From: an uncultured Paraprevotella sp. | GTDB taxonomy: Bacteria; Bacteroidota; Bacteroidia; Bacteroidales; Bacteroidaceae | Direction: 5' to 3' | Length of the DNA stretch: 64,000 bases | Assembly: GCA_944321345.1 (NCBI GenBank) | Contig: CALUKY010000001.1 | Coordinates: 1-64,000 of the forward strand | Shown here: one piece after another, positions 15,184 to 53,147 of the stretch | How positions within the stretch are numbered: position 1 is the stretch's first letter | How the letters are laid out: the number at the start of each line of letters is the position of its first letter | Notes under the pieces: model-generated | The model's input: only the letters and a program-made list of their open reading frames with translations | Databases searched by the model: none | What the model was told of the DNA's origin: nothing | Position numbers and translations under genes: made by a program

Positions 15184-15199
15184 GGTTTCACGTGAAACA
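15184..15199. promoter_or_regulatory. parS-like centromere site (ParB/Spo0J binding)
   Basis: GGTTTCACGTGAAACA matches the widely conserved parS 16-mer TGTTTCACGTGAAACA at 15 of 16 bases and keeps the full GTTTCACGTGAAAC palindrome. It lies between mnmG and apt, outside any reading frame. In other bacteria such sites are bound by ParB, cluster near the origin and direct chromosome segregation. parA and parB are not in this window. No second copy was found by eye. Confidence 0.85.
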
Positions 15200-35361: not shown

Positions 35362-35385
35362 CACCTTATTATAATAGAAAGAAAA

Positions 35386-46641: not shown

Positions 46642-47124
46642 TTAGAAATCCGACTGATAGGCCAGCCGCTCCGTTCCGTTTGCCACACGGATTATCCCGC
46701 AATATCGGAATCCGTTCTTTTGCAGAATGTGCTGCATGGTCTTGTTGTCCTGATGGGTGTCCACACGCAGGGAACGACAATGCCGGCAGCACCAGTTCAG
46801 ACAAAAATCAGCAGTACCCTTTATTTTACCGTTGGAAGCGATACGATGCACTACATAATAAGGTGTATCAGAAAGCCATTCTCCTTCTATATGCGCATAT
46901 GTAGGGTCCGGTCCCGGAATAAAACAGAATGTAGACACAACTTCACCATTTTCTTCGCACACATAGCACCATTCCTGCTTTATCTGTTGCGAAATCAGTT
47001 CGGCCGAAGGATATCCCTGAATCCACTGATTGGGATTACCGTGGGCCACCATATATTGTTTGGCTATTTCAAAAAGTTCCATTAGAGTATTCAGATCCTC
47101 CTGAGTCGCTTTTCTAACTTTCAT
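46642..47124 (-). CDS. GNAT family N-acetyltransferase
   Basis: A 160-residue GNAT enzyme. The N-terminus [22 protein letters not shown] is a typical GNAT opening strand and helix. The acetyl-CoA region is [20 protein letters not shown] with [21 protein letters not shown], which closes the fold. Substrate unknown. It lies between nadA and metY on the same strand; a hairpin at 47160-47188 separates it from nadA. Confidence 0.85.
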
Positions 47125-47159
47125 GGATTGTATTCCTCTTTAATAAGTACATTATAAAA

Positions 47160-47188
47160 AAGGAGAGGGGTAAGCAACCCTTCTCCTT
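47160..47188 (-). terminator. Terminator after nadA
   Basis: AAGGAGAGGGGT (47160-47171) pairs imperfectly with ACCCTTCTCCTT (47177-47188). On the minus strand it is followed by TTTTTATAATG. It ends nadA transcription before the GNAT gene. Confidence 0.78.
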
Positions 47189-47204
47189 CATTTGCATTGA
47201 ATTA

Positions 47205-48197
47205 TTATAATCCGAGTTTTTCGGAGATTTCCAACATTTTGTTTATCGGTTTGATAGCCTTCTCCGCAACCGCAGGATCCACCTCTATTTCAGGCCATTC
47301 ATATTTCAACGTGTTGTACAGCTTTTCGAGAGTGATCAGGCGCATGTAGTTGCATTCGTTGCAGGCACAGTTGCTGTCCGACGGAGGAGCCGGTATAAAG
47401 GTCTTTTCCGGACAGGATTTCTGCATCTCGTGCAGGATACCGCTCTCTGTAGCCACGATATACTCTTTTGCGGGCTGTTCGATGGCATATTTTAGCAAAG
47501 CGGCCGTAGAGCCTACTTTGTCTGCCAGCTTGGCCACAGCTCCCTTACACTCCGGATGCACCAGAATTTTGGCTTCCGGATGCTGTTTCTTCAGTTCGAT
47601 GATCTTTTCTACGGAAAAACGCTCGTGTACATGGCAGGCACCGTCCCAAAGCAACATGTTCCGTCCGGTCACAGAATTGATATAACCGCCCAGATTCTTG
47701 TCCGGTCCGAAAATGATCGGTGTGTCCTCGCTAAAGCTTTCTACAATCTGCTTGGCATTGCTGGAAGTAACCACCACATCGGTCAGTGCCTTCGTGGCTG
47801 CCGTGGTGTTTACATAAGAAATTACGGTATGTCCCGGATGAGCCTTGACAAATTCTTCAAAACGATCGGCCGGGCAGCTTTCTGCCAGAGAACAAGTGGC
47901 ATTGAGATCCGGAACCAGCACTTTCTTGTCCGGACAAAGAATCTTATTAGTTTCGCCCATAAAATGCACGCCACACATCACGATAATATCTGCAGTGGTA
48001 TTTGCTGCCTTTTGAGCCAGTGCCAAACTATCCCCCACAAAGTCCGCCAAATCCTGTACGGCACCGTCGGTGTAATAGTGCGCCATAATCACAGCATTCT
48101 TCTGCCGGCACAAATTTCGGATTTTCTGCTTCAGATCCAGTGTTGCATCCACCGATTCATCCACATAACCTTTTTTCAACCAATCTTCTTTAATCAT
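47205..48197 (-). CDS. nadA: Quinolinate synthase A
   Basis: A 330-residue [4Fe-4S] enzyme that condenses iminoaspartate with DHAP to quinolinate in NAD synthesis. MAHYYTDGAVQDLADFVGDSL (residues 40-60) is the first family signature; cluster Cys candidates lie in VMCGVHFMGET, LLWDGACHVHERF and NCACNECNYMRL. Its partner NadB (L-aspartate oxidase) is at 57.4-59.0 kb, about 9 kb away on the same strand, on the other side of the candidate origin. Confidence 0.94.
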   Translation of the reverse strand: MIKEDWLKKGYVDESVDATLDLKQKIRNLCRQKNAVIMAHYYTDGAVQDLADFVGDSLALAQKAANTTADIIVMCGVHFMGETNKILCPDKKVLVPDLNATCSLAESCPADRFEEFVKAHPGHTVISYVNTTAATKALTDVVVTSSNAKQIVESFSEDTPIIFGPDKNLGGYINSVTGRNMLLWDGACHVHERFSVEKIIELKKQHPEAKILVHPECKGAVAKLADKVGSTAALLKYAIEQPAKEYIVATESGILHEMQKSCPEKTFIPAPPSDSNCACNECNYMRLITLEKLYNTLKYEWPEIEVDPAVAEKAIKPINKMLEISEKLGL

Positions 48198-48597
48198 ATT
48201 ATTAATATATTTATTCTTTTATTTTTTAGAAAAACCTTATGATGATATGTATTGCTTGTTGAAAGTGTTCAGAAAAAAAAGTCCGATTATTTGCTTTTTA
48301 CGTTATAATCTGTAGAGAATAAGTAATGAACATTTTATCGACAATTTTATTTTTTGCTTAGTCTTTGATTTTTATGCTTGTATCTGACACTTTATATCTG
48401 TTTTCAACGATCTGTTGATAAAGTGCAAAGTTAAAAACTTTAATAGAAAAAAGAGGTGAAAATCAGATGAAAATCTCGTTCAAATTCTGTTTTAAGTTTT
48501 TGATAACTAATTTGTCCATATCCTGAAAAAATATATTAACCAATTGATTATTAGGATGCAAATTTATTTTTTTAATTGTATCGTTTATTTATAAACG

Positions 48598-48618
48598 GGT
48601 TTTAAACAGGTTTTAAAC
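48598..48618. repeat. Direct repeat GGTTTTAAAC
   Basis: Two copies, 48598-48607 and 48609-48618, 11 bases apart (one helical turn), immediately upstream of the -7 box at 48629. The spacing suits a protein-binding site in the -33 region or origin. Confidence 0.5.
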
Positions 48619-48628
48619 GCGTTATTAT

Positions 48629-48636
48629 TATCTTTG
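48629..48636 (+). promoter_or_regulatory. -7 promoter box of SPOUT methyltransferase gene
   Basis: TATCTTTG fits TAnnTTTG and overlaps the GTG at 48636, so translation must start at ATG 48660. Confidence 0.6.
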
Positions 48637-48659
48637 TGAACAATTTATTGATAACTGTC

Positions 48660-49193
48660 ATGAGAAAGCTAAAAATTACGGAGTTGAACCGTGTTTCCAA
48701 GGAAGAGTTCAAGAATATCGACAAGCTTCCGTTGGTCGTGGTGCTCGATGAGGTGCGAAGTTTATATAATGTTGGATCGGTGTTCCGTTCTTCTGATGCC
48801 TTTGCCGTTTCGGCTGTTTATCTGTGCGGCATCACGGCGGTACCGCCTAATGCGGAGATTCATAAAACGGCTCTGGGAGCCGAGGATTCGGTGGACTGGA
48901 AGTATTTCAAGCATACGCAAGATGCTGTGAATGAACTGAAAGCTGATGGTTATGAGGTGCTTGCCATCGAACAGGTGGAACACAGCACCATGTTGCAGAA
49001 TATGACTCTGGATCCACAGAAGAAATATGCCATTATTTTGGGAAATGAGGTGAAAGGAGTGCAGCAGGAGGTTGTGGATATGTGTGACGGCTGTATCGAG
49101 ATCCCTCAGTTCGGAACCAAACATTCATTGAACGTATCCGTTACCGCCGGAATTCTTATCTGGGAATTTGCGCGACTGCTCAAACTCGGTTGA
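48660..49193 (+). CDS. SpoU/TrmH-family RNA methyltransferase
   Basis: A 177-residue SPOUT-class 2'-O-methyltransferase using SAM. The motifs are in order: LDEVRSLYNVGSVFRSSDAF (about residues 28-47), IILGNEVKGVQQEVVDMCD (about 125-143) and IPQFGTKHSLNVSVTAGI (about 148-165), which form the trefoil knot. The target is tRNA or rRNA, not resolvable. It lacks an N-terminal L30e-like domain, so it resembles TrmH/TrmL-type minimal enzymes. It sits inside the cluster of DnaA-box-like sites. Confidence 0.9.
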   Translation: MRKLKITELNRVSKEEFKNIDKLPLVVVLDEVRSLYNVGSVFRSSDAFAVSAVYLCGITAVPPNAEIHKTALGAEDSVDWKYFKHTQDAVNELKADGYEVLAIEQVEHSTMLQNMTLDPQKKYAIILGNEVKGVQQEVVDMCDGCIEIPQFGTKHSLNVSVTAGILIWEFARLLKLG

Positions 49194-49439
49194 TAACTGT
49201 TGATAATTCTGGAATGAATTTATTTGTTTAACTTGTAATAATTTGTATATTAGTATTTTATAATATCAGATACTATTATTGATAGCTGTTGATAACTTCT
49301 GTTGATAATTTATTTTTTATAGATTCTATATGAGAAATAATTCCTTTGGAATTTTCTTTAGAAGGTAGAAACAGGAATCATTTAATTACAAAATGACTTG
49401 TAATCGGTTGACAGGAATTTTTTCTGGTAAAATATAATG

Positions 49440-49492
49440 ATCCCCATCTTTATGAACAGATATTGTTGATAACTGCTTCAAAAGATGGGGAT
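49440..49492. terminator. Bidirectional terminator with a DnaA-box-like loop
   Basis: ATCCCCATCTTT (49440-49451) pairs with AAAGATGGGGAT (49481-49492), between the convergent methyltransferase and DUF4294 genes. The loop contains TGTTGATAA (49464-49472). The remaining spacer 49194-49439 holds four further TGTTGATAA or near copies and no gene. Confidence 0.7.
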
Positions 49493-49518
49493 TTATATTT
49501 TAATCGGTTTATGAATCA

Positions 49519-50145
49519 TTAAATGGAACCGGATTCCACCAATTTGACTACACGTTCCACCATGCGGTCATCGTATTCCGGATCATATTCTTTTTTCAAG
49601 CTGGCACCAAAAAGCCAGGCAAAGCTTTGATAAAAGCCTGCTTTAAAACTACCGAAGAAAGCCTGTACGATATGAAATGAGGATTGGTTACATTCTCGGT
49701 CTATCAGTTTTATGAGCAGTTTACCTTGAGCATAAGTCAGCTTTTTCATTACTGGAGTATATTCGGCTTTAAGCTCCTTTTCCACTTTTTTCATGTAGGC
49801 ATCCCTTTGCTTTTTGGTCGGTAATTTTTCCAACTCTTCATAAGTTTCCATAATCTTTCGATTCACTAATTTTGCATAAGGCAAAGTGCGTTTTACATTT
49901 CTCACCAGTTTGTTGTAACGGACTATTTCTCTTTTGTTTTTGAATTTCAGCGGAGGATAGACCGGAAGTTCCGGCATGACAATGACTTCGATGGAATCGC
50001 CTTTATAGAATTCTTTCTGTATTTTTTTGTAAAAGACCACACGCAATTCTAACTCAGGAGCATTTCCTAAGTCATCTTCTTCGTTTTGTGCATAAGCAGA
50101 AATCGAAGGTATCAGCAGCCATATCAGAGGAAGAATCCATTTCAT
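49519..50145 (-). CDS. DUF4294 family exported protein
   Basis: A 208-residue protein with a signal peptide (residues 1-19, ending AYAQ) and the DUF4294 domain, recognisable by IEVIVMPELPVYPPLKFKNKRE and VRNVKRTLPYAKLVNRKI with many Lys and Glu. The C-terminal NQSSFHIVQAFFGSFKAGFYQSFAWLFG segment is typical. Function unknown; periplasmic. A -7 box at 50156-50163 lies 10 bases upstream. Confidence 0.82.
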   Translation of the reverse strand: MKWILPLIWLLIPSISAYAQNEEDDLGNAPELELRVVFYKKIQKEFYKGDSIEVIVMPELPVYPPLKFKNKREIVRYNKLVRNVKRTLPYAKLVNRKIMETYEELEKLPTKKQRDAYMKKVEKELKAEYTPVMKKLTYAQGKLLIKLIDRECNQSSFHIVQAFFGSFKAGFYQSFAWLFGASLKKEYDPEYDDRMVERVVKLVESGSI

Positions 50146-50155
50146 AATCTCATTG

Positions 50156-50163
50156 CAAATTTA
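50156..50163 (-). promoter_or_regulatory. -7 promoter box of the DUF4294 gene
   Basis: TAAATTTG on the minus strand fits TAnnTTTG. It ends 10 bases before the ATG at 50145, so the leader is only a few bases long. Confidence 0.5.
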
Positions 50164-50238
50164 TAAATTTAATTGTTTGGTAGACATATGTTTTTGTGAA
50201 TATCTTTTTTGTTATGGATTTTAAAGACATCTGATGAT

Positions 50239-52293
50239 ATGAAGTGTTGGTTCGTTACCATATCAAGTTATCAACAGCACTTGTTGAAAATGTTGGTAAT
50301 TATTTGTTTATCAATATTATACTTTGTTGATAACTTGTCGGCACAATCTCTTTCCTGGGATTATTATCTAGAAAAATTCTCTCAGGAAGATTTATATGAA
50401 CATTCCGTTTCCCATGAAGATATAGTCGATTTGTATGATATCCGCGAGCACCCTTTACCGATTAATACGGCAACTAAAAATGATTTGGAGCGTTTGTTTT
50501 TTCTGGAATCAGTCCAAATAGAAGATATTTTAGCTTATCTGTATCAGTATGGACCTATGAAATCCTTAGGAGAACTGCAGTTTATCGAGAGTTTGGACTA
50601 TGATACCCGTGAATTCCTCAAATTCTTTTTTTATATTGATGATAACCCTGTTGAAAAATCACCAATAACGTTGAAAAACTTGTTGAAAGAAGGAAGGTAT
50701 TCGTTCACAACTCGTTTGGACATTCCTCTTTATCAGAGAGATGGATATAAGAATTATCCGGATAGTGTTCTGTTGAAAACTCCTGATAAAAAGTATTTGG
50801 GAAATGCCCTTTATCACTATATCAAACTGCAGTATGATTACCGTAACCGTCTGTATTGGGGACTGACAGCGGTGAAGGATGCCGGAGAACCTTTTGCCAA
50901 TAATCTGAACAAGGGATATGATTCATACAGTTTTCATCTGCTGTTGAAAAACTGGGCGTTTTTTGAAACCTTAGCTCTTGGAGATTATCGGGTGCGTACA
51001 GGCGAAGGATTGGTTTTCGGTTCCGGTTTTTCCATGGGAAAGGAGTTTGATATCACTATGAGCCGACAGGTTATCAACAAGCATACTTCTACAGATGAAT
51101 ATTACTTTATGCGTGGGGCGGCGGCTACGATGAAATGGGGAGATCTGTGTTTTTCTCCTTTTGTATCCTTCCGGAAAACGGATGCCTCGCTCGATGATAA
51201 TGGTAGGATTGAAACCTTGAAAACAGACGGTTATCACCGTACGTGGACGGAATATTTCCGCAAGAGAAATGTTTTCAACGGTCTGTATGGAGCGCATCTT
51301 TCCTATAACCGTCCTCATTACAAAGCGGGAATGACGGGGTATTATCAGCATTGGGATCATGAGTTTTCAACAGGTACCCAACTTTATAAACGCTATGCCC
51401 CTAAAGGAAGAACCTTTTGGGGGCTTTCTGTCGATTACGGGGTTGCTTTTGGAGATTGGGCTTTCTCGGGAGAATCGGCACATAGCGGACTTTATCACGG
51501 TTGGGCCACGGTAAACAAGCTTCTTTACCGTCCTTTGCCGGATTTGAAACTGTTTGCCCTGTATCGCTTGTATTCCTATCGGTATTATGCCCAGTATGCC
51601 TCTGCTTTCTCCGAAGGAAGCAAAACACAGAACGAAAGCGGTTTTTATTTGGGTACGGAATATCAGCCCTGGCGGTTTGTCCAATTGAAAGCGGCATTTG
51701 ATTATTACTATTTCCCATGGCCAAAGTATGGATTGGATCATAGCAGTGACGGATACCAGATCCGCCTGCAGAGTGACATCAGGCAAAACGACCGGATGCG
51801 TTATTCGGCAACATATTCTTTCAAGAAGAAAGAGAAGTTCAATGTGTTTCATTATACGCACCGTCTACGTCTGAAATACATATATCAGCCGGATGAACGT
51901 ATGGTACTGCAAACCGAATGCTCGGGAGTGGGAGCCAATAAAGCCGGCGGAAAACGGAAATATGGTGCGTTGGTAGGCGAATCATTTTCATGGGTTATCA
52001 ACAATCTGTTGAAAACTACGCTGACCTGTGCCTATATCCATGCCGACGGCAGTCTGTGCAGTCTGTCGCTTTATGAACCCGGTTTGCTGTATTCCTTCTC
52101 TTTCAACAACTATTATGATCCGGTGTTACGGCTTTCGGGCATGCTTCGTCTGGATTTAGGTCCGCGTTATCTTCTGTTGTTCAAATACGGCATGAGCCGT
52201 TATTTTGGAGTGTCTGAAATATCTTCGGGCCGTCAGCGGATTTCCGGTTCCCTCAAGCAGGACCTTTATTTGCAGTTGCGCGTCAAAATCTAA
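50239..52293 (+). CDS. Helix-hairpin-helix plus outer-membrane barrel-like protein
   Basis: A 684-residue exported protein. The start is at ATG 50239 or 50290; both give a signal peptide ending at NLSAQ. An HhH-like segment follows (LPINTATKNDLERLFFLESVQIEDILAYLYQYGPMKSLGELQFI, read as two hairpins), similar to ComEA-type DNA-binding repeats. The rest is rich in alternating aromatic strands (YYFMRGAAATMKWGDLCF, FYLGTEYQPWRFVQLKAAFDYYYF) and ends as an outer-membrane barrel. HhH next to a barrel hints at DNA or glycan handling at the outer membrane, but the function is unknown. The gene's 5' end overlaps two DnaA-box-like sites. Confidence 0.78.
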   Translation: MKCWFVTISSYQQHLLKMLVIICLSILYFVDNLSAQSLSWDYYLEKFSQEDLYEHSVSHEDIVDLYDIREHPLPINTATKNDLERLFFLESVQIEDILAYLYQYGPMKSLGELQFIESLDYDTREFLKFFFYIDDNPVEKSPITLKNLLKEGRYSFTTRLDIPLYQRDGYKNYPDSVLLKTPDKKYLGNALYHYIKLQYDYRNRLYWGLTAVKDAGEPFANNLNKGYDSYSFHLLLKNWAFFETLALGDYRVRTGEGLVFGSGFSMGKEFDITMSRQVINKHTSTDEYYFMRGAAATMKWGDLCFSPFVSFRKTDASLDDNGRIETLKTDGYHRTWTEYFRKRNVFNGLYGAHLSYNRPHYKAGMTGYYQHWDHEFSTGTQLYKRYAPKGRTFWGLSVDYGVAFGDWAFSGESAHSGLYHGWATVNKLLYRPLPDLKLFALYRLYSYRYYAQYASAFSEGSKTQNESGFYLGTEYQPWRFVQLKAAFDYYYFPWPKYGLDHSSDGYQIRLQSDIRQNDRMRYSATYSFKKKEKFNVFHYTHRLRLKYIYQPDERMVLQTECSGVGANKAGGKRKYGALVGESFSWVINNLLKTTLTCAYIHADGSLCSLSLYEPGLLYSFSFNNYYDPVLRLSGMLRLDLGPRYLLLFKYGMSRYFGVSEISSGRQRISGSLKQDLYLQLRVKI

Positions 52294-52333
52294 ATTAATA
52301 AGAGTATTCATCTGCAAGAAGAAAATAAATCAT

Positions 52334-52341
52334 TAATTTTG
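52334..52341 (+). promoter_or_regulatory. -7 promoter box of the radical SAM gene
   Basis: TAATTTTG fits TAnnTTTG, 29 bases before ATG 52371. Confidence 0.5.
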
Positions 52342-52370
52342 CGAGATTGATTAACAAAACAAGGATTGCT

Positions 52371-53147
52371 ATGTCTACAATTATTTACCCTTCACCGGTG
52401 TTCGGGCCGGTTCACAGCCGCAGGCTGGGAGTTTCTTTGGGTATAAATCTGTTGCCCGAAGATGGAAAATTCTGCACTTTCGACTGTGTTTATTGTGAAT
52501 GTGGCTTTAATAAGGACCATAGGCCTCACCGTCCGCTTCCCACTCGTGAGGAAGTATGTGCTGTGCTTGAAGAGCGCTTGAAAGATATGCATGAAAACGG
52601 TCCGCATCCCGATGTGTTGACTTTTGCCGGCAACGGAGAGCCTACTTTGCATCCGGAGTTTGCCGGAATCATTGATGATGTGGTGCGTCTGCGCAACCAT
52701 TATTTTCCGGAAGCGAAGATCAGTGTGCTGAGTAATGCCACGCAAGTGTTGAAACCCGAAGTTTTCAACGCTCTGTTGAAAGTGGATAATAATATCCAGA
52801 AGCTCGACACGGTGAATATGTCTTATATCGAACTTGTGGATCGTCCTACCGGGCATTATGACGTACAGCAGATTATCGACCAGCTGAAAGCCTTCTCCGG
52901 TCATGTGATTATTCAAACCATGTTTATGACGGGCAGTACGCAGGGATATTCAGTGGATAATACCACTCCGGAATTTGTGGAGCCTTGGTTGGAAGCAGTT
53001 AAGGAAATCAATCCACGGCAAGTGATGATTTATACCATTGACCGTGAGACTCCGGATCATGAACTCCGCAAGGCCGGAAAGGAAGTGCTCGACCGTATCG
53101 GACAACAGGTGCGTGAGGCGGGCTTCGAAGTTTCCGTATCTTATTGA
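52371..53147 (+). CDS. Radical SAM protein
   Basis: A 258-residue radical SAM enzyme. The [4Fe-4S] motif CxxxCxxC is in FCTFDCVYCECG (about residues 34-45), and TFAGNGEPTLHPEF contains the GGE-like SAM-binding strand. The short C-terminus suggests a small single-domain member with an unresolved substrate. ATG 52371 (MSTIIYPSPVFGPVHSRRLG) is chosen; the frame is open a few codons further upstream to 52347. Confidence 0.88.
   Translation: MSTIIYPSPVFGPVHSRRLGVSLGINLLPEDGKFCTFDCVYCECGFNKDHRPHRPLPTREEVCAVLEERLKDMHENGPHPDVLTFAGNGEPTLHPEFAGIIDDVVRLRNHYFPEAKISVLSNATQVLKPEVFNALLKVDNNIQKLDTVNMSYIELVDRPTGHYDVQQIIDQLKAFSGHVIIQTMFMTGSTQGYSVDNTTPEFVEPWLEAVKEINPRQVMIYTIDRETPDHELRKAGKEVLDRIGQQVREAGFEVSVSY

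Follow-up and report, generated by a model that had tools for sequence, protein, structure and literature searches.

Does the gene-free gap between nadA and a SpoU RNA methyltransferase gene mark the place where replication of the chromosome starts? This question is raised by a 64,000-nucleotide stretch of DNA from an uncultured Paraprevotella sp. (the window), in which copies of the DnaA-box-like 9-mer TTATCAACA are crowded around this gap. The gap region is very probably the chromosomal replication origin (oriC) of this Paraprevotella-like Bacteroidales bacterium, as judged from sequence, because TTATCAACA is clustered more densely there than anywhere else in the draft genome, the GC skew at four-fold sites switches at the gap, and a sequence module is conserved in the corresponding gap of relatives. 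Some of the relatives with this module also switch skew there. In several related bacteria too, replication almost certainly starts directly upstream of nadA, a gene for NAD synthesis, and away from the initiator gene dnaA.

Clustering of the DnaA-box-like sequence

The window contains nine exact copies of TTATCAACA, all of them within 48413-52003, and none of 100 shuffled windows reaches this number. The seven exact 9-mers listed by an earlier note on this DNA are all exact and lie where it placed them, and two further copies are found at 51071 and 51995 on the plus strand. For the whole window, 0.78 copies are expected by chance. The draft genome (2.90 Mb in 78 contigs, with the window on contig C1) contains 45 copies, as compared with 24 for the reversed pattern used as a control, and nine of the 45 lie inside 3.6 kb of the window. 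Given the background density, seven or more copies would fall within 1.92 kb with a probability of about 1e-15 for a fixed position and of about 1e-12 genome-wide (Poisson). Among the 1260 anagram 9-mers counted in 48198-52003, TTATCAACA has nine copies and the runner-up three. The only other group in the draft consists of three copies in 1.3 kb, at parA/parB-like genes (C3:107610-108906). The cluster is thus the outstanding one of the draft, and the concern that the motif might be equally dense elsewhere is not borne out by the count across the draft, which shows no comparable cluster.

The cluster might be an artefact of chance or of the composition of A+T-rich DNA, since the gaps are A+T-rich and box counts drop with G+C (rho -0.30) over the 80 methyltransferase loci described below. 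However, the shuffle, anagram and reversed-pattern controls contradict this explanation, which has next to no probability.

GC skew of the contig

The skew was read over the first 240 kb of contig C1 (300 kb), and a changepoint was sought in the first 170 kb. Four-fold sites were adopted after the all-site skew gave a minimum at 35365. The cumulative minimum at four-fold sites (172 open reading frames (ORFs), 240 kb) is at 48197, and the best changepoint is at 48197|48636, with a log-likelihood gain of 44.4 and a skew of -0.078 on the left and +0.118 on the right. Thus, the negative-to-positive switch of an oriC is seen with four-fold sites, on one contig of the draft. A skew minimum far from 48-50 kb, which had been named as a point that would speak against an origin, is not found with these sites, although the minimum with all sites is at 35365. 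The sign is alike on both coding strands, because left of the switch the genes of either strand are negative and right of it both are positive. Of the 34 ORFs on the left (1-48197), 23 are transcribed towards the origin, head-on to the presumed fork, and gene strand is therefore not the cause of the sign.

Beyond the window, the region of C1 at 170-230 kb (L012-L015) has a G+C content of 0.34-0.41 and an unusually strong GC skew, and is perhaps a surface-polysaccharide or mobile region.

Layout of the locus

The genes are arranged in the order nadA (minus), a 459-bp gap, the SpoU methyltransferase gene (plus), a 325-bp gap, a DUF4294 gene (minus), a gene with a sub-threshold helix-hairpin-helix match (plus), a radical SAM gene and a TrkH gene. 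The features are listed below, where G311 and G304 are genomes of the genus.

47205..48197, minus strand: nadA (quinolinate synthase), left flank of the candidate origin (PF02445, E 9.7e-121)
48198..48656: core candidate oriC, the gene-free nadA-methyltransferase gap, 459 bp, 76% A+T, containing the four-fold skew changepoint
48238..48272, plus strand: weak copy of an unwinding-type module, with two poor tandem boxes, a short spacer and ATACATATCATCAT on the minus strand
48413..48421, minus strand: exact TTATCAACA box, at -244 in the window and G311 and at -240 in G304
48425..48442: block GCAAAGTTAAAAACTTTA adjoining this box, near-identical across the aligned Paraprevotella loci and L027/L033 (alignment)
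48657..49193, plus strand: SpoU/SPOUT RNA methyltransferase gene inside the candidate origin region (PF00588, E 3.1e-36)
49188..49206, minus strand: near-box TTATCAACC (49188) and exact box (49198), 10 bp apart
49194..49518: methyltransferase-DUF4294 gap, expanded, 325 bp, 75% A+T, with four boxes
49287..49308, minus strand: two exact boxes 13 bp apart, beside A+T-rich 49207-49286
49464..49472, minus strand: exact TTATCAACA box
50268..50276, plus strand: exact box, half of a facing pair with 50325, at the start of ORF 50209-52293
50325..50333, minus strand: exact box facing that at 50268, within the signal-peptide-like beginning of the gene after DUF4294
51071..51079, plus strand: exact TTATCAACA box within ORF 50209-52293
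51995..52003, plus strand: exact TTATCAACA box within ORF 50209-52293

The A+T-rich, gene-free stretch of 460 bases that had been noticed at 48198-48659 is recovered as 48198-48656, and in base composition both gaps are candidates for the A+T-rich element that lies beside the boxes of an oriC. The nadA-methyltransferase gap is alignable among Paraprevotella loci. An Rfam search of 47000-52500 gives no match at the gathering score. The dnaA gene is on contig C16, not on C1, and the origin is not dnaA-linked, as had been anticipated; a location away from dnaA is described as common in Bacteroidetes in passages on Prevotella intermedia OMA14, the oriC of which is placed far from dnaA by an Ori-Finder prediction (PMC4755523).

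A module conserved in the gap of relatives

The relatives compared are the best 80 of 566 methyltransferase loci, of which the nearest named ones are Paraprevotella (up to 81% protein identity). Within 500 bp upstream of the methyltransferase, 42 exact copies of TTATCAACA or TTATCCACA are found at these loci, as compared with one in the reversed control. Alignment of 14 of the upstream gaps gives a conserved block. A first profile, built from 13 of these gaps with the window excluded, has as its 11 best non-seed matches 11 further loci with E values of at most 0.0015, all on the same strand and 385-501 bp upstream of the methyltransferase; weaker matches elsewhere are at +755 of L064 (E 0.0096) and -1063 of L090 (E 0.011). 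After three profile rounds, 27 of the 80 loci are matched at E<0.01. When the last profile, built from 26 of its own matches, is run against 3.7 Mb of partly overlapping sequence, every match at E<0.01 is located some 380-540 bp upstream of a methyltransferase gene, and the best match in the reversed control has E 0.36. Several genomes of the genus set described below score identically to the Paraprevotella loci L024-L030, and the sets of 80 loci and 14 genomes are therefore not independent.

The consensus of 30 distinct copies, read on the TTATCAACA strand, consists of a box, a second box (CTATCAACA), G.C, TATCATCATCATCAT and then T-rich sequence. This arrangement resembles the basal unwinding system (BUS) of Bacillus subtilis, which is described as tandem boxes, a short spacer and trinucleotides with a central A (PMC8287927). 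Compared by eye, the consensus agrees with the BUS (DnaA-trio) rule (tandem boxes, a spacer of up to 16 bp and at least three NAN trinucleotides), in that the relatives' module has tandem boxes, a spacer of 3-4 nt and at least three central-adenine trinucleotides read 3'-5'. It differs in that the (ATC)n repeat reads 3'-TAG-5', as compared with the 3'-GAT-5' favoured according to the same source. Unlike BUS, moreover, the module is not beside dnaA and is weak in the window itself. The candidate unwinding region at 48198-48659, in which melting is predicted, contains in weak form the module conserved among the relatives.

nadA as the landmark of the probable origin

Of the 35 loci that score at least 8 bits and so have some module, 33 have nadA adjoining the methyltransferase gene, as compared with none of the 45 without a module. 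The two genes are head to head in 25 of 27 strong-module, 8 of 8 middling and 0 of 45 module-less loci. An adjoining nadA is not found for the strong-module loci L035 and L050, some of the locus stretches being incomplete. The methyltransferase gene was also considered as the landmark and was rejected, because 45 of its 80 loci have neither an adjoining nadA nor a module, and because in G232, G161, G225 and G147 the boxes follow nadA, with no methyltransferase gene in the 20-kb nadA stretch. Gene order ties the predicted origin to nadA and not to the methyltransferase gene. The interpretation in the earlier note is supported and mostly right, with two amendments: nadA is the landmark, and the boxes beyond the methyltransferase gene are real but are a lineage-specific extension.

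The 296 genomes of the order include 11 in a single contig, all of which were analysed as closed relatives. Near-boxes, differing from TTATCAACA or TTATCCACA by no more than one base, were counted in the 600 bp upstream of nadA. Six of them (G189, G209, G232, G147, G161 and G225) have 4-9 near-boxes, as compared with background means of 0.39-0.72 (computed without G287 and G240), and in these six dnaA is 0.6-2.3 Mb from nadA. The skew of G189 is negative in 10 of 10 sampled stretches on one side and positive in 9 of 9 on the other, with a clean switch at nadA. That of G161 switches cleanly inside the nadA stretch, that of G209 noisily inside the sampled stretch, and those of G147 and G225 coarsely in the nadA neighbourhood. 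For G170, G287 and G240, 6 kb around nadA was read, and the skew of G170 was also sampled at the methyltransferase gene. In G232, a closed genome of the same family, the methyltransferase gene is 28 kb off, five boxes flank nadA, and nadA has leuS-, rdgB- and acyltransferase-like neighbours, which G232 shares with the window (read from translations). Its nadA gap (L213:13600-14130) contains three exact copies of TTATCAACA mixed with three of TTATCCACA.

Boxes and module that accompany nadA would also be expected if TTATCAACA were an operator unrelated to replication, through which DnaA or some other factor controls nadA or adjacent genes. One box abuts a promoter-like block (48425-48442): TAACTTTG on its minus strand resembles the Bacteroides -7 promoter element, and the block is therefore possibly the nadA promoter, the transcript from which would cross the unwinding module. 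However, the skew of G189, G209, G161 and the window switches where near-boxes are found at nadA, and the near-box-less genomes tested for a switch at nadA, G105 and G235, show none. A purely regulatory role is therefore very improbable.

Variation of the box array within the genus

Fourteen of the 18 genomes of the genus set have the methyltransferase gene. Nine of the 14 have a strong module (E<0.01), with 0-2 exact TTATCAACA boxes in -370..+1700. The module is weak (6-13 bits) in the window, G311, G304, G301 and G309, which have 7, 4, 6, 3 and 2 exact boxes respectively. G304 has 11 boxes in 3.2 kb and 81 genome-wide, and G302, G303 and G305 have 27, 13 and 22 genome-wide, never three within 4 kb. 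Tens of bp separate the methyltransferase and DUF4294 genes in G301 and six aligned Paraprevotella loci, but this gap is long in the window, G311 and G304. The facing box pair at 50268/50325, 57 bp apart, is common to the window, G304 and G301. In the tree, the window, G311 and G304 are grouped with a support of 0.72, and G309 and G301 with a support of 1.0; the change may therefore have occurred once or more. In sequence comparison, the box array beyond the methyltransferase gene appears as a lineage-specific extension.

A general trade-off, in which box number would fall as module strength rises, was rejected. The 14 genus genomes, which are few and related, give a rho of -0.80, but the value is -0.11 (p 0.54) in 32 further loci having at least some module and +0.52 across the full set of 80. 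A change in the box-binding domain of DnaA that tracks the array was rejected as well, because none is common to all five weak-module genomes. Part of the basic loop (SRKQN-VVQVRQ) has N in four of these five (not G301) and A or P in all nine strong-module genomes, and the DnaA of the window's genome, G311 and G304 has S-K in place of A-R, a lead only in so few and related genomes. The DnaA of the window's genome (L001, contig C16) has NHATVLHSC where that of E. coli has DHTTVLHAC. L235 and L236 (G312 and G296) contain a second weak DnaA C-terminal domain match in a 103-amino-acid frame.

The array might instead be a datA/DARS-like locus, at which a cluster binds DnaA to control its activity by titration or reactivation while oriC lies elsewhere. 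The boxes run into a coding gene (50268-52003), and they are few or absent in nine of the 14 genus genomes, as would suit such a locus. However, the four-fold skew switch is at the left edge of the cluster, which speaks against a cluster lying away from oriC, a conserved module is present in the gap, and the sole other group in the draft is that of three copies on C3. This explanation is quite improbable for the cluster as a whole; the outlying boxes may have such a role.

The group on C3 (L016:17610-18906) has one TTATCAACA in the parB-like gene and two just upstream of the parA-like gene (named from translations), and DnaA may therefore regulate segregation genes. A parS-like palindrome with one mismatch, GGTTTCACGTGAAACA, lies between two ORFs at 15184-15199, 33 kb from the origin; there are two such places in the draft and one for the reversed control.

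Discussion

DnaA would bind the TTATCAACA boxes and then extend on the trinucleotide strand, starting at the box side of the gap and heading for nadA. A+T-rich DNA would then be melted by DnaA, followed by helicase loading and bidirectional replication. The far-side boxes, beyond the methyltransferase gene and up to 52003, probably offset the weak module by gathering DnaA, and some of them may only titrate DnaA or regulate genes.

Several results weigh against an origin at this gap. The all-site skew of C1 is weakly negative to positive around 35-50 kb, with its minimum at 35365. The module of the window is weak: the first profile matches it with E 0.56, over profile positions 9-43, at -419 from the methyltransferase start; it is absent from the last-profile matches at E<1 in the 3.7 Mb, scores 8.7 bits in a search of the gap by itself, and by eye has poor boxes and a disturbed repeat. 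The array is missing in most of the genus, eight of the nine strong-module genomes having no exact TTATCAACA in -370..+1700 and one having two. Pooled local four-fold skew is below zero on the left and above zero on the right in 12 of 22 strong-module, 3 of 6 middling and 7 of 33 module-less loci, the other 19 of the 80 having too few four-fold sites. Among the closed genomes, five of 11 (G105, G235, G170, G287 and G240) have no near-boxes at nadA. With an A+T-matched background, one of 24 G189 windows reaches its count, and G161 and G225 have no matched windows. The skew of G232 fits only within about 0.5 Mb, that of G105 and G235 switches neither at nadA nor at the methyltransferase gene, and G147 and G170 have no switch at the methyltransferase gene.

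At E. coli oriC, an A+T-rich unwinding region adjoins a cluster of DnaA boxes, and dnaA is elsewhere. The candidate origin is alike in these respects, but it uses TTATCAACA instead of TTATCCACA, and its cluster spans 3.6 kb and runs into genes. The oriC of P. intermedia OMA14, also of Bacteroidales, is similar in that a skew transition remote from dnaA holds several DnaA boxes, but these were sought by allowing one mismatch to the E. coli motif, and the passages concerned do not name the genes next to that oriC (PMC4755523). Elsewhere, passages of the literature place an origin between dnaA and dnaN (PMC3534657) or give Blattabacterium as having no DnaA boxes (PMC2768785). No tie between nadA and a Bacteroidales oriC is found in the titles and abstract openings of the open-access literature searched, nadA itself having been queried in part of that search. 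Neither the contrast between module and array nor a bench study of a Bacteroidales origin is found in the open-access literature searched.

In some Paraprevotella lineages, including that of the window, a decayed module upstream of nadA might have been replaced by the new box array and an A+T-rich element across the methyltransferase gene (49188-49308). This replacement is unlikely; if it is true, oriC hopped by about 1 kb within one genus, which would be visible by comparing sister species.

As an oriC, the candidate is of an ordinary kind. What deserves to be followed further is its nadA anchor, its trinucleotide module and its lineage-specific array. The analysis gives an exact 459-bp oriC candidate and the box TTATCAACA for Bacteroidales, a landmark upstream of nadA that is usable in part of the order, and a profile for locating origins in drafts. 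Such origin-finding matters, because estimates of growth rate from the coverage ratio of origin to terminus depend on origins. A natural test of what an origin requires is offered by sister species, some of which combine a strong module with few boxes and others a weak module with many.

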